NCBI GenBank assembly: GCA_028288675.1
Contig: JAQBNG010000198.1
Location: 1 to 35,280, forward strand
DNA from: Flavisolibacter sp.
GTDB taxonomy: Bacteria; Bacteroidota; Bacteroidia; Chitinophagales; Chitinophagaceae
Reading direction: 5' to 3'
Length of the DNA: 35,280 nucleotides
In this document: one piece after another, positions 2,006 through 33,809 of the stretch
Numbering within the stretch: the stretch's first letter is position 1
How the letters are laid out: every line of letters starts with the position of its first letter
Notes under the pieces: generated by a model
Told to the model about the DNA's origin: nothing
Database searches by the model: none
The model's input: only the letters and a program-made list of their open reading frames with translations
Translations under genes and position numbers: made by a program

Positions 2006-3418
2006 TTATTGTTGCATCAGCAGATGCGTAAAGCGTCGCAAACATACCTCATTCTGTGGAGACGAGAGCACTTGAAGTCCAAAAGAAAGGTTAGAAGAAT
2101 GCTTAAATAGTGGTAAACTAACCGCAGGCAGCCCACATAAATTAGCAAATACGGTAAAAATATCGCCCATATACACGGCTATGGGATCAATATTTTGCTG
2201 GCCTGTTTTATAGGCAACTAAAGGTGAATTTGGAGCAATAATAAAATCGAAGTCGTTGAAAATCAACGCTGTTTGGTCATTAAGTAATCTTCGTACCTGT
2301 TGGGCTTTGGTGTAGTACGCCTCAAAATAACCGGCACTTAATACAAAGGTGCCCAACATGATCCGCCGCTTTACTTCAGTTCCAAAACCGCTTTTACGAT
2401 TCTGTTGGTAAAATGTGGCAAGTTCTTTAGTATCCGTGGCAGCTTTTGTAGCGTATCGTACCCCGTCGTATCGGGATAGATTAGAAGAAGCTTCCGCAGT
2501 AGTTAGGATATAGTAGGTAGGAACGATATATTCAGTCAGCGGAAATTCAACCGGTTCAACAATATGTCCTTCAGCTTGCAGGCTCTTTATCTTTTCGCTG
2601 ATCGCTTTGGAAATCTCGGTGTCAATAGAGGGATGGTTAATCCATTCGGGGAAATAAGCAATCTTAAATTTTTTGTCTGATTCGACATTTTGTGCTGATG
2701 AAAGAGGCTGTCTCAAAGCCGTGCTGTCAAAATCATCGGGACCAGAAATGACTTGCAAAATGACTGAAGCATCCTCCACAGTATTGGCCAATACTCCTAT
2801 TACATCAAAAGAAGAAGCATATGCAATCAACCCATGACGGGAAACCCGTCCATAAGAAGGCTTATAACCAACCACTCCGCAAAAATCTGCTGGTAAGCGG
2901 ACAGAACCTCCTGTATCACTCCCCAAAGAAGCCATGCATAAGCCCGCTTTTACAGAAGCCGCACTACCACCCGATGAGCCACCCGGAACCCTACCTGTAT
3001 CTATTGGATTTAATACCGGCCCGTAAAAGGAATTTTCATTGGTAGAGCCCATTCCAAACTCATCGCAGTTTTGCCGGCCAATAATAATTGCGCCTTCTGC
3101 AAGTAAACGTTCAATTGCAGTAGCCGAATAAAGTGAAGTAAAATTTTGGAGTATGCCCGATGAAGCAGAAACGGCATGGCCTTTATAGCAGATATTATCT
3201 TTCAAGCCGATTACTACCCCATGCAGTTTGCCTTTGATTTCTGATTTATCAAGTTCTTCTGCACGGGCTAAAGCTTCCTCGGCAAAGACTTCAATAAAAG
3301 CATTAAGAGAAGAACGCTCTTCTATACAGGAAATAAAATGTCGTACCGCCTGCGTGCAAGTGGTACGACCGCTCTGTAGATCGAGCATATACTGCTCAAT
3401 GGATGAAAAGGAAAACAA
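2006..3418 (-). CDS. gatA: Asp-tRNA(Asn)/Glu-tRNA(Gln) amidotransferase subunit A
   Basis: A 470-aa amidase-signature enzyme that releases ammonia from glutamine (or asparagine) so that GatB can convert Glu-tRNA(Gln) or Asp-tRNA(Asn) to the amidated form. The Ser-cisSer-Lys triad is visible: K73 in GLKDN, S148 in GGSSGGSAA and S172 in GSDTGGSVR, with the same 24-residue spacing between the serines as in characterised GatA. GRQNCDEFGMGSTNENSFYG and VVGYKPSYGRVSRHGLIAYA are strong GatA signatures that separate it from general amidases. Length is normal for the family. It follows tatA by 17 nt. gatB and gatC are not in the window, so the genes are dispersed here. Confidence 0.95.
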   Translation of the reverse strand: MFSFSSIEQYMLDLQSGRTTCTQAVRHFISCIEERSSLNAFIEVFAEEALARAEELDKSEIKGKLHGVVIGLKDNICYKGHAVSASSGILQNFTSLYSATAIERLLAEGAIIIGRQNCDEFGMGSTNENSFYGPVLNPIDTGRVPGGSSGGSAASVKAGLCMASLGSDTGGSVRLPADFCGVVGYKPSYGRVSRHGLIAYASSFDVIGVLANTVEDASVILQVISGPDDFDSTALRQPLSSAQNVESDKKFKIAYFPEWINHPSIDTEISKAISEKIKSLQAEGHIVEPVEFPLTEYIVPTYYILTTAEASSNLSRYDGVRYATKAATDTKELATFYQQNRKSGFGTEVKRRIMLGTFVLSAGYFEAYYTKAQQVRRLLNDQTALIFNDFDFIIAPNSPLVAYKTGQQNIDPIAVYMGDIFTVFANLCGLPAVSLPLFKHSSNLSFGLQVLSSPQNEVCLRRFTHLLMQQ

Positions 3419-17309: not shown

Positions 17310-19814
17310 ATGAAATACATATATCTCACTTTCTTTTATTGCTTCGCTCTTCTTTCTGCGAAAGCGCAAACGCCATCCTTCCCAACGTCTGGTGATATTT
17401 ATTTGGGTCTAAAAAAGCTTAATGTTTTAGGCAGTGTGTTATATGTTGCTGCGCACCCCGATGATGAGAACACAAGATTGCTGACCTACTTTTCAAAAGA
17501 TAAGGCATACCGTACGGGCTATTTATCATTAACCCGTGGTGATGGAGGACAGAACTTAATTGGAGAAGAACAAGGAATTGAATTAGGGTTGATTCGTACA
17601 CAGGAATTATTAGCAGCAAGGAGAATTGATGGCGCTGAACAATTTTTTTCAAGAGCCTATGATTTTGGTTTTTCAAAATCGCCCCAGGAAACTTTTACTA
17701 AATGGGATAGGGAAAATATTTTAAGCGATGTGGTTTGGGTGATACGAAAGTTTCAGCCCGATGTCATTATCACCCGTTTTCCTACAACCGGTGAAGGAGG
17801 CCACGGTCACCATACGGCATCTGCCATTCTTGCCAATGAAGCTTTTACTGCAGCTGCTGATGCCAGGCGTTTCCCCGAACAATTAAAATATGTACAACCA
17901 TGGCAGGCTAAACGTATTTTATGGAATGGCTTCAACTTTGGCGGCGGCGCAAATACTCCAATAACCAGTGACCAGTTGAAGCTGGATGTTGGCGGTTTTA
18001 ACCCGGTGCTTGGAAGAAGCTATGGTGAGATAGCTGCCGATAGCCGGAGCCAGCATAAAAGCCAGGGTTTTGGTGTGCCGCGGAGCAGGGGTGAAGCATC
18101 AGAATCTTTTACAACTACAGCCGGTGTGCGGCCATCAACTGATTTATTTGAAGATGTTATAACCGATTGGAAAAAGGTAAAAGGAGGTGATGCTATTACG
18201 GCTCTTATTAATAACACAATTGCTTCGTTTGATTTTTTAGCGCCGCAAAAATCAGTGCCTCAATTAGTGAAGGTTTATAAAGCCTTGCAGGGGCTGCCGA
18301 CTGGTTATTGGCGGGATAAGAAAATGAAAGAAACAAAAGATCTGATTGAAGCTGCAAGCGGTTTGTGGATGGAAGCTTTTACAGCAAACCAGTATGCTGT
18401 GCAAGGTGATTCCCTTCGAATAAACTTTGTTTTAAATGATCGTTTGGGTGCAGGTATCACAGTAGAAAAAATAACTGTTGAAAACTTTGATTCAACCGTA
18501 AATAACCTTCTTACAAAAAATAAAAACCTGGCTTTCAGCAAAACAATTTTCGTTGATAATGAAAAGCCGATTACCCAACCTTATTGGCTTAAGGAAAAAA
18601 TGCAGGAAGGGTATTTTGTAGTTACAGATCAGCAAATGATTGGACAACCCGACGTTCAAACTGCTTACACTGTTAGCTATACGTTGCGCATGGGTGGCGA
18701 AAGTTTTTCTTTTACAAAACCGTTGCGCTATAAGTTTACCGACCCGGTAAAAGGAGAAGTCTACCAGCCGGTTTATGTAATTCCATCTGCTACGGTTATG
18801 GCCAGTCCTTCTATTTTATTATTTAAGAATCATGAAAAGGGTAGCAGTGAAATCTCTCTCCAGGTAAATGCTAATAAACCGTTACAGGGCAAAGCTGATG
18901 TGCACATCAAATCATTAGCCTACGACAGCACGAAAACCGATGCGGGATTTTCGTTACTCACTAACAGTAGTAAGTTTTATTCTTTTGCTTTAGATAATGG
19001 TAAAGCAGGTATCAGGCCTACTGATAATTTGTATGGCTCGTTCCATTATACCGACAACCAAAAAGAAGCGGTTGCATATCTTTCTATGCGAAGCATCAAT
19101 TATGATCATGTACCCTCAATAAGATATTTTTATGGGGATGCTGTTAAGCTGGTTTCTGTTGACTTAAAAACGGAAAATAAAAAGGTTGGTTACATAGTGG
19201 GCGCAGGCGATAAAGTGCCAGATGCACTGGAACAAATGGGTTATGAAGTAACGCTTTTAACTGATAAAGAACTGGCAAGAAATAACCTGCAACAATTCGA
19301 TGCAATCATCAGCGGTGTTAGAGCTTATAATACTAACGAGTGGCTAAATGGCTATTATGAAAAGCTAATGAAGTATGTTGAAGGTGGCGGCAACCTTGTC
19401 GTTCAATATAATACCAGCAGCAACATCGGTCCTGTAAAAGCAAAGATTGGCCCTTACAATTTCAACATCAGCCGCAACAGAATTACGGACGAAAGTGCGG
19501 CCGTTAAATTTTTAAAACCGGAACATCCTGTTTTAAATTTTCCAAACAAAATTTCACAGGATGATTTCAAAGGATGGATACAGGAACGCAGTATCTATCA
19601 TGCAGATAATTTAGATGCTCACTACGAAAGCATCCTGCGCATGAATGATCCCGGTGAAGCTGCGCATGATGGCAGCCTGGTGATTGCAAAATATGGTAAA
19701 GGATTTTTTACATACACCGGTTTGGTTTTCTTTAGAGAGTTGCCCGCCGGCGTGCCGGGAGCCTATCGTTTATTGGCTAACATCATTGCTTTAAATAAAA
19801 TAAAGGGATCGTAA
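17310..19814 (+). CDS. Large secreted PIG-L/LmbE-family deacetylase
   Basis: An 834-aa protein with a signal peptide (cleavage after SAKAQ). The PIG-L domain spans about 38-300: the zinc/catalytic motif AAHPDDE (H49, D51, D52, E53), RGDGGQNLIG, RTQELLAARRIDGAEQFF and HGHH (165-168). The family removes N-acetyl groups from amino sugars or their conjugates. The remainder holds beta-rich segments and a C-terminal amidotransferase-like region (FDAIISGVRAYN, LMKYVEGGGNLVVQYN). The protein is about three times as long as MshB or BshB, so it is not assigned to thiol biosynthesis. Its stop overlaps the start of a 54-aa membrane protein (TAATG), and a sodium:solute symporter lies further downstream, suggesting deacetylation coupled to uptake; that role is inference. 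Confidence 0.9.
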   Translation: MKYIYLTFFYCFALLSAKAQTPSFPTSGDIYLGLKKLNVLGSVLYVAAHPDDENTRLLTYFSKDKAYRTGYLSLTRGDGGQNLIGEEQGIELGLIRTQELLAARRIDGAEQFFSRAYDFGFSKSPQETFTKWDRENILSDVVWVIRKFQPDVIITRFPTTGEGGHGHHTASAILANEAFTAAADARRFPEQLKYVQPWQAKRILWNGFNFGGGANTPITSDQLKLDVGGFNPVLGRSYGEIAADSRSQHKSQGFGVPRSRGEASESFTTTAGVRPSTDLFEDVITDWKKVKGGDAITALINNTIASFDFLAPQKSVPQLVKVYKALQGLPTGYWRDKKMKETKDLIEAASGLWMEAFTANQYAVQGDSLRINFVLNDRLGAGITVEKITVENFDSTVNNLLTKNKNLAFSKTIFVDNEKPITQPYWLKEKMQEGYFVVTDQQMIGQPDVQTAYTVSYTLRMGGESFSFTKPLRYKFTDPVKGEVYQPVYVIPSATVMASPSILLFKNHEKGSSEISLQVNANKPLQGKADVHIKSLAYDSTKTDAGFSLLTNSSKFYSFALDNGKAGIRPTDNLYGSFHYTDNQKEAVAYLSMRSINYDHVPSIRYFYGDAVKLVSVDLKTENKKVGYIVGAGDKVPDALEQMGYEVTLLTDKELARNNLQQFDAIISGVRAYNTNEWLNGYYEKLMKYVEGGGNLVVQYNTSSNIGPVKAKIGPYNFNISRNRITDESAAVKFLKPEHPVLNFPNKISQDDFKGWIQERSIYHADNLDAHYESILRMNDPGEAAHDGSLVIAKYGKGFFTYTGLVFFRELPAGVPGAYRLLANIIALNKIKGS

Positions 19815-19978
19815 TGGTTGAGAAAAAGCCGAATAGCAACCGGGGATATATTGCCTTTGCATTTGTGATCTTGCTTGGTTATGCCATTGGCATCTTTATT
19901 AAAAGAGTACCGTTGGGATTGATGATTGGACTGGTGTTAGGCTTGCTGGGCTCTGGGTTGTTGAGAAGAAGGCGATAA
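19814..19978 (+). CDS. 54-aa membrane protein coupled to the PIG-L gene
   Basis: A short frame starting at an ATG that overlaps the PIG-L stop by one base (TAATG). The product begins MVEKKPNSNRGYIAFAFVIL and has two hydrophobic stretches (about 12-29 and 33-50) separated by KRVP, ending in RRRR, so it is probably a two-helix inner-membrane hairpin with positive ends inside. Coupling and coding character support a real gene. I recognise no family. It is the last gene before the GxxExxY insertion unit; its stop is 11 nt from the left inverted repeat. Confidence 0.75.
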   Translation: MVEKKPNSNRGYIAFAFVILLGYAIGIFIKRVPLGLMIGLVLGLLGSGLLRRRR

Positions 19979-19989
19979 GTTATTTGAGG

Positions 19990-20488
19990 CAAATTTTCTC
20001 GCAGCGAACGCCAAGGAGCAGCGTCGCAACGATAGACTCATTCATTATTGCTTTAATAATAATTGCCATGACAGAAAATGAACTAGCGACACTTGCATTA
20101 GACATTTCCTTCAAGATTCATCGTATGTATGGTCCTGGGTTATTTGAATCTGTTTATGAAGAAATTTTTTCTTACGAATGGAATAAAACGGGCATTCCCT
20201 TTTTAAAGCAACATCCTGTTCCCCTAATACACGAGACAATAAAACTGGATGCCGGATTTCGGGCAGATGTGATTTTAGATAATAAAATAATCATTGAGTT
20301 CAAAAGCGTTGAAGCTTTGGCAGACATACATTATAAACAACTCCTTACTTACTTAAAACTTACACACTTAAAATTGGGTCTCTTGATTAATTTTAATGTA
20401 GTCTTACTTAAAAGCGGTATACACAGGATAGCTAATAATCTATAGATCGTTGCGACGCTGCTCCTTGGCGTTCGCTGCGTGAAATTTG
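19990..20488. mobile_element. GxxExxY unit: gene bracketed by perfect 34-bp inverted repeats
   Basis: The left arm 20000-20033 is the exact reverse complement of 20446-20479 (34 of 34 bases; it begins CGCAGCGAACGCC and ends GTCGCAACGAT). Similarity continues outward through CAAATTT, giving arms of about 43 nt. The right arm begins immediately after the stop codon of the GxxExxY gene. The arms are GC-richer than the surroundings and made of CGCAACG-like words. No target-site duplication is obvious and no transposase is present. The unit sits between two small membrane-protein genes of an apparent operon. Whether it moves by itself is not shown by the sequence. Confidence 0.7.
20068..20445 (+). 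CDS. GxxExxY family protein
   Basis: A 125-aa protein. It carries the family signature GPGLFESVYE near residues 27-36 and a C-terminal GFRADVILDNKIIIEFKSVE, which resembles the D-x(n)-ExK core of PD-(D/E)XK nucleases. The longer frame runs back to a TTG at 19984 through the inverted repeat, but the ATG at 20068 (MTENELATLALDISFKIHRM) gives the usual family length. The family is known by sequence model only and is scattered across distant lineages, often suggesting lateral transfer. The gene lies wholly between the two inverted repeats and is likely cargo or catalyst of that unit. Biochemical activity is unknown. Confidence 0.85.
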   Translation: MTENELATLALDISFKIHRMYGPGLFESVYEEIFSYEWNKTGIPFLKQHPVPLIHETIKLDAGFRADVILDNKIIIEFKSVEALADIHYKQLLTYLKLTHLKLGLLINFNVVLLKSGIHRIANNL

Positions 20489-20512
20489 TTCCATCAAATA
20501 AAATTTGTTTGC

Positions 20513-20629
20513 ATGAAATCTGACGAACCCCCACTTTTCAAATCCTGGACATCCTGGTATATTCTTGTGATTGGTTTTCTGATCCTTTTAATTTTTCTCT
20601 TCTATCTCTTTACCAAAAAGTTTGCATGA
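20513..20629 (+). CDS. 38-aa single-helix membrane protein upstream of the symporter
   Basis: A very short frame: start MKSDEPPLFKSWTSWYILVI, one hydrophobic helix (about 15-33) and the end FTKKFA. Its TGA overlaps the symporter ATG by four bases (ATGA), so the two are very likely translated together. By analogy, several sodium:solute symporters have a small membrane-protein gene directly upstream (YhdT with PanF, the DUF485 protein with ActP), but this one is shorter and I recognise no family. It starts 24 nt after the right end of the GxxExxY unit. Confidence 0.72.
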   Translation: MKSDEPPLFKSWTSWYILVIGFLILLIFLFYLFTKKFA

Positions 20630-22365
20630 ACAGTACCGATTGGCTGGTGATAATTTTTGTGCTGGCAGGCATCATACTTTATGGCTTGTATAAAAGCCGC
20701 ACAACAAAAAACCTTGAGGGTTATTTTCTTTCCAATCGCAACCTTCCGTGGTATGTCGTGCTGCTAAGTATCATGGGTACGCAGGCAAGCGCCATTACTT
20801 TCCTTTCCGGGCCCGGACAAGCCTTTGCGGATGGAATGCGCTTTGTGCAATATTATTTTGGATTGCCATTAGCGATGGTAGTTATCTGCATCACTTTTGT
20901 TCCACTTTTTAACAGGCAAAAAGTTTTCACAGCGTATGAGTTTTTAGAAACCCGTTTCGATAATAAAACAAGATCACTTACTTCATTTTTATTTCTTTTA
21001 CAGAGGGGCGTTTCAACCGGCATAAGCATTTATGCACCTTCTATAATTATTTCTTCACTGTTTGGGTGGGATATTTTCTGGACCAATATAATCATGGGTG
21101 GATTACTAATTATCTATACGGTTGCCGGTGGTGCAAAAGCGGTTGCGCACACACAAAAAATTCAACTCTTTATCATCTTTGCTGCTATGGGGGCCGCTGC
21201 TTATACGGTTATAAATTTATTGCCTGATAATGTAGGCATCATAGATGCATTACACATTAGCGGCAAAGCCGGACGTACCAACGTTATTACAACAGGAATG
21301 ACAGAAAGCGGTTTTGACTGGAATGACCGCTACAATATTTGGAGTGGAGTAATCGGCGGCTTCTTCCTGGCACTCTCTTACTTTGGTACCGATCAGTCAC
21401 AGGTAGGAAGATATTTAACAGCACAAAATAACCGGCAAAGCCGCATTGGATTATTAATGAATGGCCTGATAAAAGTGCCGATGCAATTCGGTATTTTATT
21501 GATTGGTGTACTGGTATTCGCTTTTTACCAGTTCAATCCATCGCCTGTTTCCTTTAATGAAGGATTGCTGAGTGAGGTAAATGCAACATCGCATAAAGAC
21601 TCCGTTCAACTATTGCAAAGCAGGTATGACTCGGCAATGGTTTTAAAAACGAAAGCTGCTCAATCATATCTAACGTCATTGCATCAAAATACAGAAACCG
21701 GCACTATTGAAAAGGAACTTAAAGTGCTCAACGCAAAAACAGATTCTTTGCGAAACGATTTTAAGCGCATGGCAAAAGCATCTGTGAATAAAAAAGGCGA
21801 TGATGCCAATTACGTCTTTCTATCTTTTGTAAAAACCTACTTGCCTACAGGTTTAAAAGGCTTGTTGATTGCCATTATATTTTTAGCGGCATGGGGCTCT
21901 ATTGCTGCAGCATTGAACTCTTTGGCGGCAAGTACAGTAGTTGATTTTCATCAGCGGTTTAGCAAAGTGAATACGGAAGAAAAAGAATATAAAATAGCCC
22001 GTTGGTACACCCTGGCCTGGGGTATTTTTTGTGTGTTGATTGCGCAGTTTGCTGGCAACCTGGGGCAAAGTTTAATTGAAACAGTAAACATTTTAGGCTC
22101 CCTGTTTTATGGTGTTATCCTTGGAATTTTTTTAGTGGGATTTTATTTGAAAAGAGTTGGCGGAACGGCCACCTTCTTTGCTGCATTGGTAGTTGAAATA
22201 GTTGTATTGCTACAGTTCTTCCATGATAAAATTTCGTTTTTGCAATGGCTGCCAGAGGTTAGTTTTCTATGGCTAAACGCTATTGGCGCTTTGGGTGTGA
22301 TGCTTCTGGCTATGGTTGTGGAGAAACTGTTACGGCTTTGCCATTCTGCAGTAAATGATAAATAA
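20626..22365 (+). CDS. Sodium:solute symporter (SSS family)
   Basis: A 579-aa inner-membrane secondary transporter of the LeuT-fold SSS family. It has about 13 hydrophobic segments; the N-terminal region GYFLSNRNLPWYVVLLSIMG, then TQASAITFLSGPGQAF, FTAYEFLETRFDNKTRSL and YTVAGGAKAVAHTQ, is typical. A soluble, charged insertion lies at about 310-400 (HKDSVQLLQSRYDSAMVLKT through FKRMAKASVNKKGDD) between membrane helices, then AAWGSIAAALNSLAASTVVD follows. The insertion is in frame and looks native. The substrate cannot be read from sequence. Co-transcription with the PIG-L and M14 genes would suggest an amino sugar, sialic-acid-like compound or peptide product, an inference only. Confidence 0.92.
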   Translation: MNSTDWLVIIFVLAGIILYGLYKSRTTKNLEGYFLSNRNLPWYVVLLSIMGTQASAITFLSGPGQAFADGMRFVQYYFGLPLAMVVICITFVPLFNRQKVFTAYEFLETRFDNKTRSLTSFLFLLQRGVSTGISIYAPSIIISSLFGWDIFWTNIIMGGLLIIYTVAGGAKAVAHTQKIQLFIIFAAMGAAAYTVINLLPDNVGIIDALHISGKAGRTNVITTGMTESGFDWNDRYNIWSGVIGGFFLALSYFGTDQSQVGRYLTAQNNRQSRIGLLMNGLIKVPMQFGILLIGVLVFAFYQFNPSPVSFNEGLLSEVNATSHKDSVQLLQSRYDSAMVLKTKAAQSYLTSLHQNTETGTIEKELKVLNAKTDSLRNDFKRMAKASVNKKGDDANYVFLSFVKTYLPTGLKGLLIAIIFLAAWGSIAAALNSLAASTVVDFHQRFSKVNTEEKEYKIARWYTLAWGIFCVLIAQFAGNLGQSLIETVNILGSLFYGVILGIFLVGFYLKRVGGTATFFAALVVEIVVLLQFFHDKISFLQWLPEVSFLWLNAIGALGVMLLAMVVEKLLRLCHSAVNDK

Positions 22366-28186: not shown

Positions 28187-28320
28187 GCAATGTGTAATAG
28201 GCAATAGGCAATGTGTAATAGGGAATAGGCAATAAACAACTGGCAAAGTAATTAACAAAACGGAAATCTAATAATACGCTTCTGGAGCCATTCCCGTTGC
28301 TTATTGCCTATTGCCTATTC
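28187..28320. repeat. Inverted pair of AATAGGCAAT quasi-repeats (pair D)
   Basis: The left arm (28187-28234) is GCAATGTGTAATAGGCAATA followed by further copies, with GCAATGTGTAATAG present twice (28187 and 28207). The right arm 28301-28320 (TTATTGCCTATTGCCTATTC) is its complement. The left arm starts 11 nt upstream of the acetyltransferase ATG; the right arm ends 5 nt from the M28 stop. Between them are 66 nt with no visible feature. Confidence 0.7.
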
Positions 28321-28325
28321 TTTCC

Positions 28326-29675
28326 TCATCTTCCAACTGCAGGAACAACTGGCAAACTTTCATTGCCTGTTGCTGTTACAGCCTGTACAGCAAAAAAATA
28401 ATTGTCTTTTGAATAAGGTATTGTAGTAGAAAGTTGAGAAGTAAATATTTTCTTTTGCCATACCGGCGATGTGGTTTCCCGCATTAAAATATAGTAACCC
28501 GTTGGCTTGCCGTTTTTGGGCGCTTTCCAGCTAAGCGTTGTGGAGTTGGTAAGATTTTTCACATCTACCAAAACCGTTTGCGGTACCGATGAAGCTTTTG
28601 CCAAATTGGCCAGCGTCGCTAAGTTTATACCTGTGTTTTTACGCAGGTATTCAAAGTCCATGAACTCAATAAGGTCGCCATAGACGATGCCTTTTTCTGT
28701 GCGAAGGTCCTGGTGTTGATGGTTATAGTTTTCATTCATTTCAGTAATGCGAACGGCGGCAAAGCCACGTTGCACAAAAGGCGTATGATCGCCGCCGCGA
28801 AGAAAGCGGTCGTTTCGATAAACCATCACTACATCTAAATTTTCTACATAGCGTTCACCTACTTCTTTCAGGTAGCGGGCCAGCTGCCTTGTTTTCCCAT
28901 CATTCTCTAAACCAAGGCTGCGAATGTTTTGAAAAGCACGGCCGGTATCCTGTACAGAAAAGGCTTCGCTAAACACACGAACCTTTGTATTGTCGATAAT
29001 GTTTGTTTCATTACTGTTATTGCTACCCATAATGTCGTTGTTCAACATCGCATCAATATTCCAGGCCTGTTTCTTTGCTTTTTCGGCCAAATATCCGGCA
29101 CCTAATAAACCTTGTTCTTCACCACTTACTGCCACAAAAATTATGGTGGCAGGAAAGCTTCGCTTACTCATAATTCTTGCACATTCCATAACCGCCGCTA
29201 CACCGCTGCCATCATCGTTTGCGCCTGGGGCGTCGGCGGTCTTATTCATTACATCGCTAACACGGCTATCTAAATGGCCGCTGATCAAATAAATACGGTC
29301 ATCGCTTGCATCTGTGCCTTTAAGTATCGCCATAGCATTACCTAAGTTAACTGCTGCACTTACCCTGCGCCCATCGGGTTGCAATGTAATAGTATCAACC
29401 ATTGCTGTTAATCTTCCACCGCTTTGTAAAGCAAATTCATTAAACTTTTGCACCACCCATTCTCTGGCGCCGCCAATGCCTTTCTTTTTATCTGTTGTAG
29501 TACTTATTGTACTGCGGGTACCAAAGCTTACCATCTTGTTGATATAGCTCTTCATTGAGTCGGGTGAAATTTCTTTAACCATCGCTTCTATTTCAGGGTC
29601 ACGCTGAATGATGGTTTGGGCGGAAGAAAGAGAAGTTATCGCGAGCAGGGTTACAATAAAAAGGCTTTTTTGCAT
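28326..29675 (-). CDS. Secreted M28-family zinc peptidase with C-terminal fibronectin-III-like domain
   Basis: A 449-aa exported aminopeptidase-type enzyme (signal peptide MQKSLFIVTLLAITSLSSAQ). The di-zinc site is complete: H134 in SGHLDSR, bridging D154 in GANDDGSGVAA, E186-E187 in SGEEQGLLGAGY, D214 in LNNDIMG, and a late histidine in NYNHQHQDL. After about residue 355 a beta-sandwich of fibronectin-III type follows (VDVKNLTNSTTLSWKAPKNG, YYILMRETTSPVWQKKIFTS). No T9SS sorting domain is seen, so it probably stays periplasmic. It probably clips N-terminal amino acids from peptides. It diverges from the signalling cluster. Confidence 0.9.
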   Translation of the reverse strand: MQKSLFIVTLLAITSLSSAQTIIQRDPEIEAMVKEISPDSMKSYINKMVSFGTRSTISTTTDKKKGIGGAREWVVQKFNEFALQSGGRLTAMVDTITLQPDGRRVSAAVNLGNAMAILKGTDASDDRIYLISGHLDSRVSDVMNKTADAPGANDDGSGVAAVMECARIMSKRSFPATIIFVAVSGEEQGLLGAGYLAEKAKKQAWNIDAMLNNDIMGSNNSNETNIIDNTKVRVFSEAFSVQDTGRAFQNIRSLGLENDGKTRQLARYLKEVGERYVENLDVVMVYRNDRFLRGGDHTPFVQRGFAAVRITEMNENYNHQHQDLRTEKGIVYGDLIEFMDFEYLRKNTGINLATLANLAKASSVPQTVLVDVKNLTNSTTLSWKAPKNGKPTGYYILMRETTSPVWQKKIFTSQLSTTIPYSKDNYFFAVQAVTATGNESLPVVPAVGR

Positions 29676-30558: not shown

Positions 30559-32007
30559 ATGGCTAAGAAAGTAAACCAGGATAAGAATGAATTACTCATT
30601 GTTCGTAAGGAACTTGCAGATCAAAAAGCAGAAAAGGATAAATTGGCAGCCGAGTTAAAAACTGCTAATAATGAGTTGCTTTTCCAGGACCGGGAAAAGG
30701 GCAAAAGGGCGGCTGAGTTAGGAATCGCTAATAAAGAACTCGTTTTTGAAGATGCAGAAAAAGGAAAAAGGGCGGCTGAGTTAGGAATTGCAAACATTGA
30801 GCTTGACTATCAGAAAGACGAAAAGGAAAAACGTGCTGAAGAATTAACCATTGCAAATAAGGAACTGGCTTATCAAAATAAGGAGAAGGAAAAACGGGCT
30901 GGTGAGTTAAGTATCGCCAACATAGAACTTGCCTATCAAAATGATGAGAAAGAGAAACGTGCCGAAGAATTAACCCTGGCTAATAAAGAGTTGCTCTTTG
31001 AAAACGGGGAGAAGGAAAAAAGAGCAGCTGAGTTAGTGGTGGCAAACAAGGAACTGGCCTATCAGAATAAAGAGAAAGAAAAGCGGGCTGCTGAATTAAT
31101 TATTGCAAATAAAGAGCTTGCCTATCAGAATAAAGAAAAAGAGAAAAGAGCTGTTGAATTAAGTATTGCCAACATAGAGCTTGCTTATCAAAACGAAGAA
31201 AAAGAAAAGAGGGCCGAAGAACTAACTACTGCTAACAGGGAACTTAAACAAGCCGAAGACGACATTCGTAAACTCAATGACGAACTAGAACAGAAGGTAG
31301 TTGAGCGTACAGCACAATTAGAATCTGTGAACAGGGAACTTGAATCATTTTCCTACTCAGTATCACATGATTTAAGAGCGCCGATCAGGGCCATTAATGG
31401 TTATACAAGAATTATAATGGAAGATTATGCCGGCAAATTTGACGCTGACGGTACAAAAGTTCTTAACTCCATCATGCACAGTTCAAAAAAAATGGGGGAA
31501 CTGATAGATGACCTGCTTGCCTTTTCTAAATTAGGAAGAAAGCAGGTTACTGTATCGGCGATCAATATGTCCGCACTGGTTGAAATGGTAAGGGAAGAAT
31601 TATCATTTGAAGATGATGAGAACATCCCGGAATTTAAAGTACAGGAGCTCCCTGATGCTAAAGGAGATCAGTCGCTCATTAAACAGGTATGGATCAATTT
31701 AATTTCCAATGCCATCAAGTATTCGAAATATAAAGCAAAAGCAAAAATCGAGATCGGGGCTTATGAAAAAAAGAACCAGGTGGTTTACTTTGTAAAGGAT
31801 GATGGAGCCGGATTTGATATGCAGTACTACGATAAACTTTTCGGGGTTTTTCAACGCTTACATTCGCAGGAAGAATTTGAAGGAACGGGGATTGGACTGG
31901 CTATTGTACAAAAAATAATACACCGGCATAATGGAACTGTCTGGGCAGAGTCGAAGCTAGACAAAGGAGCCTGCTTTTATTTTAGCCTGCCTAATGGAAA
32001 ACTCTAA
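30559..32007 (+). CDS. Sensor histidine kinase with nine tandem 21-aa coiled-coil repeats
   Basis: A 482-aa cytoplasmic kinase with no membrane helix, PAS or GAF domain. Residues 36-224 are nine copies of a 21-residue unit of the form ANKELAYQNKEKEKRAAELII, and a further helix runs through 225-262. The HisKA dimerisation domain follows, with phospho-acceptor H270 in SVSHDLRAPIRA, then the ATP-binding domain: N box WINLISNAIKYSK, G1 KDDGAGFDMQYYDKL, F box FGVFQRLH and G2 GTGIGLAIVQKI. It is related to the phytochrome-type kinases that pair with Rcp1-like regulators but lacks their sensor, so the signal is unknown; a partner protein binding the long helix is possible. Confidence 0.92.
   Translation: MAKKVNQDKNELLIVRKELADQKAEKDKLAAELKTANNELLFQDREKGKRAAELGIANKELVFEDAEKGKRAAELGIANIELDYQKDEKEKRAEELTIANKELAYQNKEKEKRAGELSIANIELAYQNDEKEKRAEELTLANKELLFENGEKEKRAAELVVANKELAYQNKEKEKRAAELIIANKELAYQNKEKEKRAVELSIANIELAYQNEEKEKRAEELTTANRELKQAEDDIRKLNDELEQKVVERTAQLESVNRELESFSYSVSHDLRAPIRAINGYTRIIMEDYAGKFDADGTKVLNSIMHSSKKMGELIDDLLAFSKLGRKQVTVSAINMSALVEMVREELSFEDDENIPEFKVQELPDAKGDQSLIKQVWINLISNAIKYSKYKAKAKIEIGAYEKKNQVVYFVKDDGAGFDMQYYDKLFGVFQRLHSQEEFEGTGIGLAIVQKIIHRHNGTVWAESKLDKGACFYFSLPNGKL
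30664..31230 (+). repeat. Nine tandem 63-bp repeats inside the histidine kinase gene
   Basis: The DNA repeats every 63 bp (21 codons) without interruption. Codons vary between copies, so the copies are diverged and not a recent exact expansion; units 7 and 8 are nearly identical in protein (NKELAYQNKEKEKRA). The repeat is in frame, so copy-number change would not break the gene. One and a half similar units occur in the kinase at 32595. Confidence 0.92.
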
Positions 32008-32594: not shown

Positions 32595-33809
32595 ATGACA
32601 GCCGATCTTAAAATACTTATTCTTGAAGATAATGAAACTGACGCTGACCTGGTTTGTCGTCAATTAAAAAAATCCGGATTGTCCTTTGCTTCTGAAATTG
32701 TTCATACCCGTAAAAAGTATGAGGATGCACTTCAAAACTTTAAGCCTGATGTTGTATTATCAGATTATTCACTTCCCGGTTTCGACGCGGTAACTGCCTT
32801 TCGCATCAAGCAAAATAAATTGCCACTTATTCCTTTTATTATTGTTTCCGGTATTATTGGCGAAGAAAATGCTGTTGAACTTATTAAAAATGGAGTTACC
32901 GATTATACGCCAAAGAATAACCTGGTTGGCTTAGCCCAGAAAATTATAAGGGCATTAAAAGAGGCAGAAGAAAGTAAAGAAAGAAAAAGCATTGCTGATA
33001 AACTGGCAATACAGACAGCAGAATTAATAGTTGCCAACAAACAACTTCTTTTTCAAAACGAGGAGAAGGAAAAGAGAGCGGCCGAACTTGCTATTATTAA
33101 TAAAGAACTTCTTGCATTTTCCTATATATCCAGCCACGATTTGCAGGAGCCATTACGTAAAATACAAACTTTTGTCACACTCCTTTTAGAGAATGAACAT
33201 CAAAATTTATCGGACAAAGGCAAGCATACGTTGCATCGAATGGAACTGGCCGCAGCAAGGATGCGGCACCTTATTAATGATTTACTTGCTTTATCCCGCG
33301 TTAGTACAACGGAGCTGGAGTTCGAATATACCGACCTCAATAGTATAGTAGAAGAAGTAAAAACAGTGCTCAGAGATATCATCCAGGAAGAAGGCGCAAC
33401 CATTGAAGCCACTGAATTATGCCATGCTACTATTATTCCATTTCAGTTTCGCCAACTGCTTCGCAACCTGCTTAGCAATTCAATTAAATTTTCAAAGCCA
33501 GGCGTTCCGCCACATGTAATAATAAGCAGCAGCTTTATAAATGGTAGTGACTTAAAAGATCAAAAATTGATACCCGGTAAAGAGTATTGCCTTATTAATG
33601 TCACGGATAACGGCATTGGATTTGAGCCTCATTTTAGTGAACGTATTTTCGAAGTCTTTCAAAAGCTTCACAATAAAGAAATATATGAGGGCACGGGTAT
33701 GGGCCTTGCTGTTGCAAAGAAAATTGTAGAGAACCACAAGGGCATTATAACAGCAACAAGCGAATTAAATAACGGCACCACATTTCATATTTATATCCCG
33801 GTGATTTAG
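32595..33809 (+). CDS. Hybrid protein: N-terminal receiver followed by histidine kinase
   Basis: A 404-aa protein with the domains in receiver-kinase order. The receiver (about 4-118) has D12 (LEDNETDAD), phospho-acceptor D57 in VVLSDYSLPGF, S85 and K107 (YTPKNNL). A linker of one and a half copies of the ANKQLLFQNEEKEKRAAEL repeat (about 143-171) leads to the HisKA domain with H181 in ISSHDLQEPLRK, then the ATPase: LLRNLLSNSIKFSKPG, VTDNGIGFEPHF, FEVFQKLH and GTGMGLAVAKKI. The frame opens at 32484; possible starts are 32514 (overlapping the previous stop, TAATG) and 32595. The latter begins directly at the receiver fold and is chosen, with moderate certainty. It is the last gene of the signalling cluster. 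Confidence 0.88.
   Translation: MTADLKILILEDNETDADLVCRQLKKSGLSFASEIVHTRKKYEDALQNFKPDVVLSDYSLPGFDAVTAFRIKQNKLPLIPFIIVSGIIGEENAVELIKNGVTDYTPKNNLVGLAQKIIRALKEAEESKERKSIADKLAIQTAELIVANKQLLFQNEEKEKRAAELAIINKELLAFSYISSHDLQEPLRKIQTFVTLLLENEHQNLSDKGKHTLHRMELAAARMRHLINDLLALSRVSTTELEFEYTDLNSIVEEVKTVLRDIIQEEGATIEATELCHATIIPFQFRQLLRNLLSNSIKFSKPGVPPHVIISSSFINGSDLKDQKLIPGKEYCLINVTDNGIGFEPHFSERIFEVFQKLHNKEIYEGTGMGLAVAKKIVENHKGIITATSELNNGTTFHIYIPVI

Follow-up and report, generated by a model that had tools for sequence, protein, structure and literature searches.

The GxxExxY gene that lies between inverted repeats in the window (the whole 35,280-nt stretch of Flavisolibacter DNA analysed here) is probably one copy of a very small, promoterless and slow-moving mobile gene cassette whose arms work at the DNA level. 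The cassette consists of a gene for a PD-(D/E)XK nuclease set between two inverted arms, each made of a few tandem units of about 9 nt, and by this reading it would insert, or survive best, between the stop codon of one gene and the start codon of the following gene in an operon. There it would read with the operon, and the host operon could thereby express the nuclease gene. The arms would be DNA-level ends that matter during movement and decay independently once the unit is resident, and the nuclease, being kept by selection in residence, would also do something in the cell. The window copy, with its exact 34-nt arms, would be a young arrival.

Direct comparison confirmed that positions 20000-20033 are the exact reverse complement of 20446-20479, the gene being framed by perfect 34-nt cores as the first-pass annotation had claimed. 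A repeat search extended these to a pair of 42 nt that is 95% complementary, with the left arm at 19992..20033 (plus strand) and the right arm at 20446..20487 (minus strand), 412 nt apart, and this pair is the longest and first among the 14 inverted pairs listed for the window. When a small gap is allowed, the match grows to 51 of 56 columns, from 19980 to 20501, and takes in the imperfect outward extension by CAAATTT that had been read from the sequence earlier (TTATTTGA..CAAATTT, 19980..19991 on the plus strand, for the left arm, and as far as 20501 for the right); such an extension is not general in the GxxExxY family. The arm score of 42 compares with a maximum of 21 in 2000 Markov-1 shuffles of the unit's own flanks. 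By eye, the left arm core (plus strand, within 20000-20033) divides into four degenerate units, TCGCAGCG, AACGCCAAG, GAGCAGCG and TCGCAACG. The gene runs on the plus strand from an ATG at 20068 to the TAG stop codon at 20443-20445 (20068..20445) and encodes 125 aa, and the right arm does begin at the very next base, 20446. A 153-aa ORF listed from a TTG at 19984 has a start that precedes the arm core and is mechanical only. The complete arm-gene-arm unit thus spans about 510 bp. The same genome gave no other copy of these arms, either by DNA search or with one exact pattern. Elsewhere in the window, a gene-less inverted-arm pair occupies 28187-28320 (27 nt, 89%, 49 nt apart, units GGCAATA by eye) and ends 6 nt from the stop of a minus-strand ORF (28326-29675), before the next codirectional ORF; it shows the same junction habit, and its units resemble those of the 23S-IVS protein family described below. 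Nine degenerate 66-nt copies, mostly 63 nt apart, lie at 30651-31220 and 33020-33085.

The encoded protein belongs to the GxxExxY family, scoring 120.2 bits against TIGR04256 (cut-off 35) and 116.1 bits against PF13366, PDDEXK_3 (cut-off 22). Residues E27, D67, E77, K79, Q91 and Y95 are all present and at least 90% conserved among 39 sequences; in terms of the PD-(D/E)XK fold, E27, D67, E77-x-K79, Q91 and Y95 form the putative catalytic set. An AlphaFold2 model of the protein (pLDDT 93.5) gave weak best fold matches to LHK-Exo, lambda exonuclease and SSO0001, a Cas4, with the Cas4-family ACE1 lower; the best E was 2.9e-3 and none was at or below 0.001, and the top rows had a TM-score to the query of at most about 0.5, many with a large rmsd. 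With a limit of E 10, Pfam returned only PDDEXK_3, in a search in which the HMMER filters drop most weak matches. No transposase domain was found in the protein by Pfam and profile searches at that limit, Pfam gave no Y1 (HUH) transposase match, a PDB sequence search gave no match, and a PADLOC search reached 0.021 at best. Among 19 pairs of intact copies that share a junction, dN/dS was 0.03-0.23 in the 12 with unsaturated synonymous change, the other seven being saturated, and pN/pS pooled over all 19 pairs was 0.105. Judged from these coding sequences, the nuclease is under strong purifying selection while resident, which suggests that its task goes beyond a single act of jumping, or that its continued action benefits the host or the unit.

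Inverted arms frame the gene at 140 of 177 distinct full-length GxxExxY loci when 300 nt upstream is compared with 300 nt downstream at a score of at least 15, a threshold chosen after the first controls were seen, and the other 37 loci have no arms at this threshold. By the same search, arms turned up in 16 of the 433 shifted controls, in 65 of 877 flanks that had been mispaired, in 29 of 885 Markov shuffles and around 4 of 68 further small genes, these four including one more GxxExxY copy and one Y1_Tnp gene. The examination of GxxExxY flanks that had been proposed as a check came out in favour of conserved arms. The 206 input loci comprised 75 from a similarity scan, 48 from profile searches, 80 from 19 chosen copy-bearing genomes, two further copies from the window's own genome and the window itself; 204 had a match, 184 of these were full length, 183 had flanks and 177 were left after removal of six duplicates. 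They were chosen by similarity to the window or from copy-bearing genomes, and are not a random sample; many come from MAGs. The 75 loci of the similarity scan are mostly from Bacteroidota, with some from other bacterial phyla and archaea, and among the 61 kept, arms reached the threshold in 34 of 42 from Bacteroidota, 3 of 4 from Planctomycetota, 3 of 3 from Pseudomonadota, 0 of 2 from Acidobacteriota, 0 of 1 from Verrucomicrobiota, 0 of 1 from Bacillota and 7 of 8 from others. By profile searches, 150 of the 244 genomes from the host family have GxxExxY, with as many as 15 matches in a single genome; some of the matches contain stops or are truncated. One contig (L061) carries two GxxExxY genes about 1.4 kb apart (1249-1581 and 3001-3369), each with inverted arms, and an IS200-like transposase gene with arms (L085) was met by chance among the control genes. 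Carriage of the unit by phages or viruses was considered and set aside: phage records gave no tblastn match for GxxExxY, and no viral contig was confirmed in one scan with the window protein alone, which detects close relatives only. Four plasmid records contain GxxExxY, all predicted to be non-mobilizable. On a plasmid of Sphingomonas parapaucimobilis (L272), the gene is flanked by fabD and fabG; an arm-like stretch was seen to its left, and no right arm was found.

The arms are alike in plan, not in letters. They consist of tandem units, with matches at a lag of 9 at 0.354 compared with 0.283 in shuffled arms, and lags 8 and 10 also raised. Units seen by eye include CACAAAG, CGCAGCG, ACAGAG, CACGGATT, TTAAG and others, and most of the close protein kin of the window copy have the arm head TTTC[A/T]CGC or a variant of it, also by eye. 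Sharing of 6-mers between arms rises with protein identity (rho 0.356, compared with a maximum of 0.118 in 999 permutations, shared descent not being allowed for); the first Mantel run, like the G-U count given below, used 144 elements, before duplicate removal. The relation holds among hosts of one family (rho 0.344), the curve is the same for same-genome and different-genome pairs, and the 60-nt flanks outside the arms show no relation with protein identity (rho -0.012). In 103 of 140 elements, the two arms are closer to each other than to the arm of the element with the nearest protein, and this is so in 70 of the 83 where the nearest protein is 60-80% identical. On this evidence, arm sequence tracks the protein and not the host, and the unit ends at the arms. 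Such co-divergence hints that the nuclease may recognise the arms, and common descent of the unit would give the same; that the nuclease recognises the arm units and cuts there to release or place the cassette is offered as a tentative proposal, somewhat short of an even chance. Across the 140 elements, direct repeats were not in excess over mispaired ends, as a target-site duplication would leave, and inverted repeats outside the arms were not above mispaired controls, as a general target palindrome would require. Insertion into a hairpin, an idea that came from the outward extension in the window, was rejected on the same count, outer repeats being at the level of the mispaired controls in the 140 elements.

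By mechanical ORF calls, on which both orientation and spacing rest, the unit reads in the direction of the upstream gene in 125 of 138 cases, compared with 161 of 220 control pairs, and begins a median of 5 nt past the upstream stop and ends 7 nt before the next codirectional start. With the length of the unit removed, the reconstructed spacers are at most 40 nt in 80 of 123 cases; this is far above the 4.5% expected if insertion simply followed intergenic length, and above the 44% of unweighted codirectional pairs that are this close. The bias towards tight junctions may stem in part from selection against other landings and from the need for a promoter. A unit so placed would have no promoter of its own and would be expressed from the operon. 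The genes at some junctions (nuoF, nuoG, PreA and its partner, split methionine synthase, Gfo/Idh/MocA beside a sugar isomerase-type gene, and radA) were named by profile at one or two loci each, those at the remaining loci by similarity. At seven loci (L125, L078 and five more), the GxxExxY gene sits exactly between the split halves of methionine synthase, one of them in a Verrucomicrobiae genome.

The rival that survives best, which we hold to be a real if minority possibility, is that the nuclease is a passenger: cassettes of unrelated small genes (GxxExxY, the 23S-IVS protein and perhaps others) would be placed by shared machinery acting in trans, and the nuclease would be cargo with a use of its own in defence, repair or self-maintenance. 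In support of this, the same genomes carry genes for 23S-IVS proteins (TIGR02436/PF05635; 18 matches in the genome of the window) that are likewise framed by inverted arms, at 23 of 27 readable loci (30 fetched, three at contig edges) compared with 3 of 108 controls. These units sit in even tighter junctions, the reconstructed spacer having a median of 3 nt and being at most 40 nt in 19 of the 22 with arms and both neighbours. In part of PMC10053308, the 23S-IVS protein PF05635 is likened to Avd of diversity-generating retroelements. That an unrelated family, whose protein is not known to be a nuclease, has the same architecture means that the nuclease need not be the mover, which may be elsewhere. 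The junction between nuoF and nuoG in relatives holds either family, or a HEPN gene. In 30 genomes, picked since some were known to be filled there, 28 such junctions were readable, with GxxExxY in nine, the 23S-IVS protein in three, a HEPN gene in two, an ORF without a Pfam match in two and spacer only in twelve (7-113 nt; one, in G061, keeps an arm-like remnant by eye). Because two unrelated proteins share both the architecture and a junction, a common mechanism of placement has to be taken seriously as a rival, and conservation of the nuclease while the arms decay is also as expected for cargo. Against it, the arm units of the two families differ by eye, and the arms closely follow the GxxExxY protein, as they would for a specific partner, even if common descent would give the same.

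Two separate GxxExxY clades occupy nuoF|nuoG, and the copies there in G157 and G274 have no full-length ATG-started frame. In the second group (L046, L049, L131, L134, L136 and L149), the arm units are reversed, with CTTTGCG in the left arm. The genome of the window has a HEPN-domain gene and a 106-aa ORF at its own nuoF|nuoG (L329), and that of G012 has a HEPN gene (L322), neither with arms by eye. We consider it possible, if doubtful, that cassettes of this plan at operon junctions make up a general, as yet undescribed class, in which small genes of unrelated kinds are each set between two arms. An unknown mechanism would then aim at the few bases between stop and start, rebuild both arms as mutual copies at each jump and reuse hot junctions (nuoF|nuoG above all, even for different families, but also the PreA operon and split metH). 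The GxxExxY nuclease would be one such mover and would recognise the units of its own arms.

The 168 loci with both neighbours fall into 115 different junctions, of which 24 are recurrent, and this recurrence would also be expected of a homing cassette, in which the nuclease would cut the unoccupied junction in a relative and the cassette would be copied in during repair, each lineage staying at its own junction. The absence of a target-site duplication fits such a mechanism, and so does the fact that all 11 pairs of copies with at least 90% identity share a neighbouring gene, none being at different junctions. We nevertheless regard homing as unlikely: among pairs with at least 75% identity, 61 share no neighbouring gene and 36 share one, the close kin of the window copy are found at nuoF|nuoG, in the PreA operon and at the junction between the PIG-L and symporter genes, and homing does not need inverted arms. 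For the mobile cassette that we prefer, the lack of any pair of at least 90% identity at different junctions implies that movement is slow or mostly between species; among pairs of copies in the same genome with at least 75% identity, one only is at different junctions. No transposition event was seen in these comparisons, all of which are between species.

The first-pass annotation had also suggested that the arms, as long RNA stems, might limit read-through into the symporter gene. More generally, the unit could be an RNA-level element like the intervening sequences (IVS) of 23S rRNA, whose arms pair in the operon mRNA, with RNase III removing the insert or read-through being limited. The two arm regions of the window set together do fold into a very stable stem (-81 kcal/mol in one fold), the units lie with the operon, and the IVS elements of 23S rRNA share the form, as far as parts of PMC4990558 describe it. 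These points are outweighed by how the arms mismatch and decay, and we find an RNA-level role improbable. Among arm mismatches in 144 elements, 239 are of the G-U type and 275 of the A-C type, and the lack of a G-U excess gives no sign of selection for RNA pairing. In resident copies that share a junction, 329 arm changes are one-sided and 38 are coordinated, compared with about 25 expected if the sides were independent (the other columns being 573 unchanged, 95 shared mismatches and 139 mixed); 26 pairs were listed, of which three had no scorable arms, leaving 23, and several loci are in two pairs. Since changes are mostly one-sided, with little that preserves pairing, the arms are hardly kept paired in residence. 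Rfam gave only a chance match (E 0.95). On these indirect tests, an RNA stem was set aside as the function of the arms, and a limit on read-through is not favoured. Across what appear to be separate landings, the arms do change together, and the simplest inference is that movement of the unit is when they act or are renewed; a copy with perfect arms, such as that of the window, would then be young.

The operon around the unit is as first described, according to ORFs and Pfam. Upstream on the plus strand, a PIG-L domain protein (17310..19814) is coupled to a 54-aa protein (19814..19978), whose ATG overlaps the PIG-L stop (19814), which has a tblastn match in most same-genus loci and which ends 13 nt before the left arm. 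Downstream on the same strand, a 38-aa protein (20513..20629), with a tblastn match in relatives, has a stop that overlaps the ATG of a sodium:solute symporter family protein (20626..22365). Seventeen congeners were searched, and of the 13 loci in which this junction is readable, 11 have neither the gene nor such arms (three of these 11 show an inverted repeat of another kind, by eye). Relatives thus do not always carry the gene at this place, and the comparison of orthologous loci yielded sites without the unit. In G003, a GxxExxY gene lies at the same junction, encoding a protein 52% identical to that of the window, and in G012 the arms are present without a GxxExxY gene. Kin of the window protein in other operons of other genera reach 74% identity. 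A sister relation of the window and G003 copies was rejected (AU p 0.0197), the G003 protein having a long branch, and, for the symporter tree, a single clade of the three species that bear a copy or arms (G000, G003 and G012) was rejected as well (AU p 1.2e-5). Repeated arrival at this junction is therefore supported, if not proven; since G000 and G003 fall within one group of five species and the G003 branch is long, a single old insertion followed by loss and fast change may also fit. What had been proposed as a minimal mobile unit landed in a symporter-deacetylase operon holds for the structure of the unit, the arms at 140 of 177 loci, the 11 of 13 same-genus loci that lack it and the kin in other operons, and from these we infer the movement itself. 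That it is instead an ordinary inherited operon gene between two ordinary hairpins, absent from relatives by loss, is very improbable: pairs of copies at a single junction do last within a genus, several of them about 95% identical, and copies can therefore be inherited for long, but the copies closest to that of the window occupy other operons, in other genera, both AU tests speak against it, and the arms belong to the unit across many junctions.

Arm pairs without a gene do exist, and in this the findings go part of the way towards the refuting case in which the arms would occur mostly without the gene, as ordinary intergenic repeats. In G125, they are of another arm type than that of the window, and spread of these gene-less arms by the GxxExxY system was rejected for at least seven of the 13 regions fetched, which share sequence far beyond the arms and have apparent ends of their own, by eye. 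These regions (L294-L298, L301 and L303) are copies of what is apparently a dispersed MITE, whose ends resemble CAGGGCAGACGCATTAAAA (by eye) and which carries a gene-less GxxExxY-type arm pair; one mobile element thus seems to have spread the arms of another. The spacer that bears GxxExxY in G201 (L245) is occupied by other ORFs in some congeners (L285, L287, L289 and L290); in G253 it contains, by eye, two arms of another type with no gene between them.

GxxExxY is common, as its presence in 150 host-family genomes attests, yet it is barely named in the literature searched: a passage that was found concerns the classification of RTs, PDDEXK_3 was absent among the matches listed for PDDEXK_3 or inverted repeats, and nothing was found for TIGR02436, for four helix bundle protein with inverted repeats and 23S rRNA, or for mobile Bacteroidetes IVS. 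The unit belongs to an arm-framed kind of operon cassette that is widespread and, judged from that literature, apparently undescribed. If this is true, many GxxExxY and 23S-IVS genes are riders and not operon members, and guesses at their function based on the operon would mislead. The unit would also reduce the problem of mobility to a minimal kit of one 125-aa nuclease-family protein and two arms, and nuoF|nuoG, empty or filled by different riders in relatives, offers a natural experiment.

Among known systems, the IVS of 23S rRNA is the closest in form. As described in parts of PMC4990558, it is a small selfish unit of 0.4-0.5 kb, proposed to be mobile, with one short ORF, complementary borders, sporadic occurrence and recurrent insertion places, and it resembles the window unit in its complementary borders around one ORF, its size, its sporadic distribution and its recurrent sites. 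It differs in that IVS elements lie in rRNA helices with an S23 ORF (S23/IVP, PF05635), whereas the window unit lies at an mRNA operon junction with a PDDEXK_3 gene and has arms without RNA signatures; IVP genes as arm-framed units at operon junctions, seen here, are absent from those parts of PMC4990558. REPs, which form inverted pairs and are tied to specific RAYTs (in parts of PMC3116915), are similar in having a single gene with inverted repeats and gene-less derivatives. However, a RAYT is a tyrosine (Y1) transposase and the GxxExxY protein has no such match, and no further arms of the window type were found in its own genome, the gene-less pairs of G125 being of another arm type. With insertion sequences, the unit shares inverted ends, one gene and scattered, decaying copies, but it has no transposase domain or target-site duplication, its gene encodes just 125 aa, its bias towards operon junctions is strong and its arms have a period of about 9 nt. 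Lambda-exonuclease and Cas4-like nucleases weakly match the predicted model in fold (best E 2.9e-3) and have a conserved QxxxY pair in common with it. Rpn proteins (YhgA-like, PF04754) are PD-(D/E)XK nucleases. In the portion of the literature consulted, they are broadly distributed and tied to RecA-independent horizontal transfer; they belong to a different Pfam family, the window protein matching PF13366 only. Finally, an integron gene cassette carries one attC, at its 3' end, whereas the unit described here has its arms on both sides of the gene.
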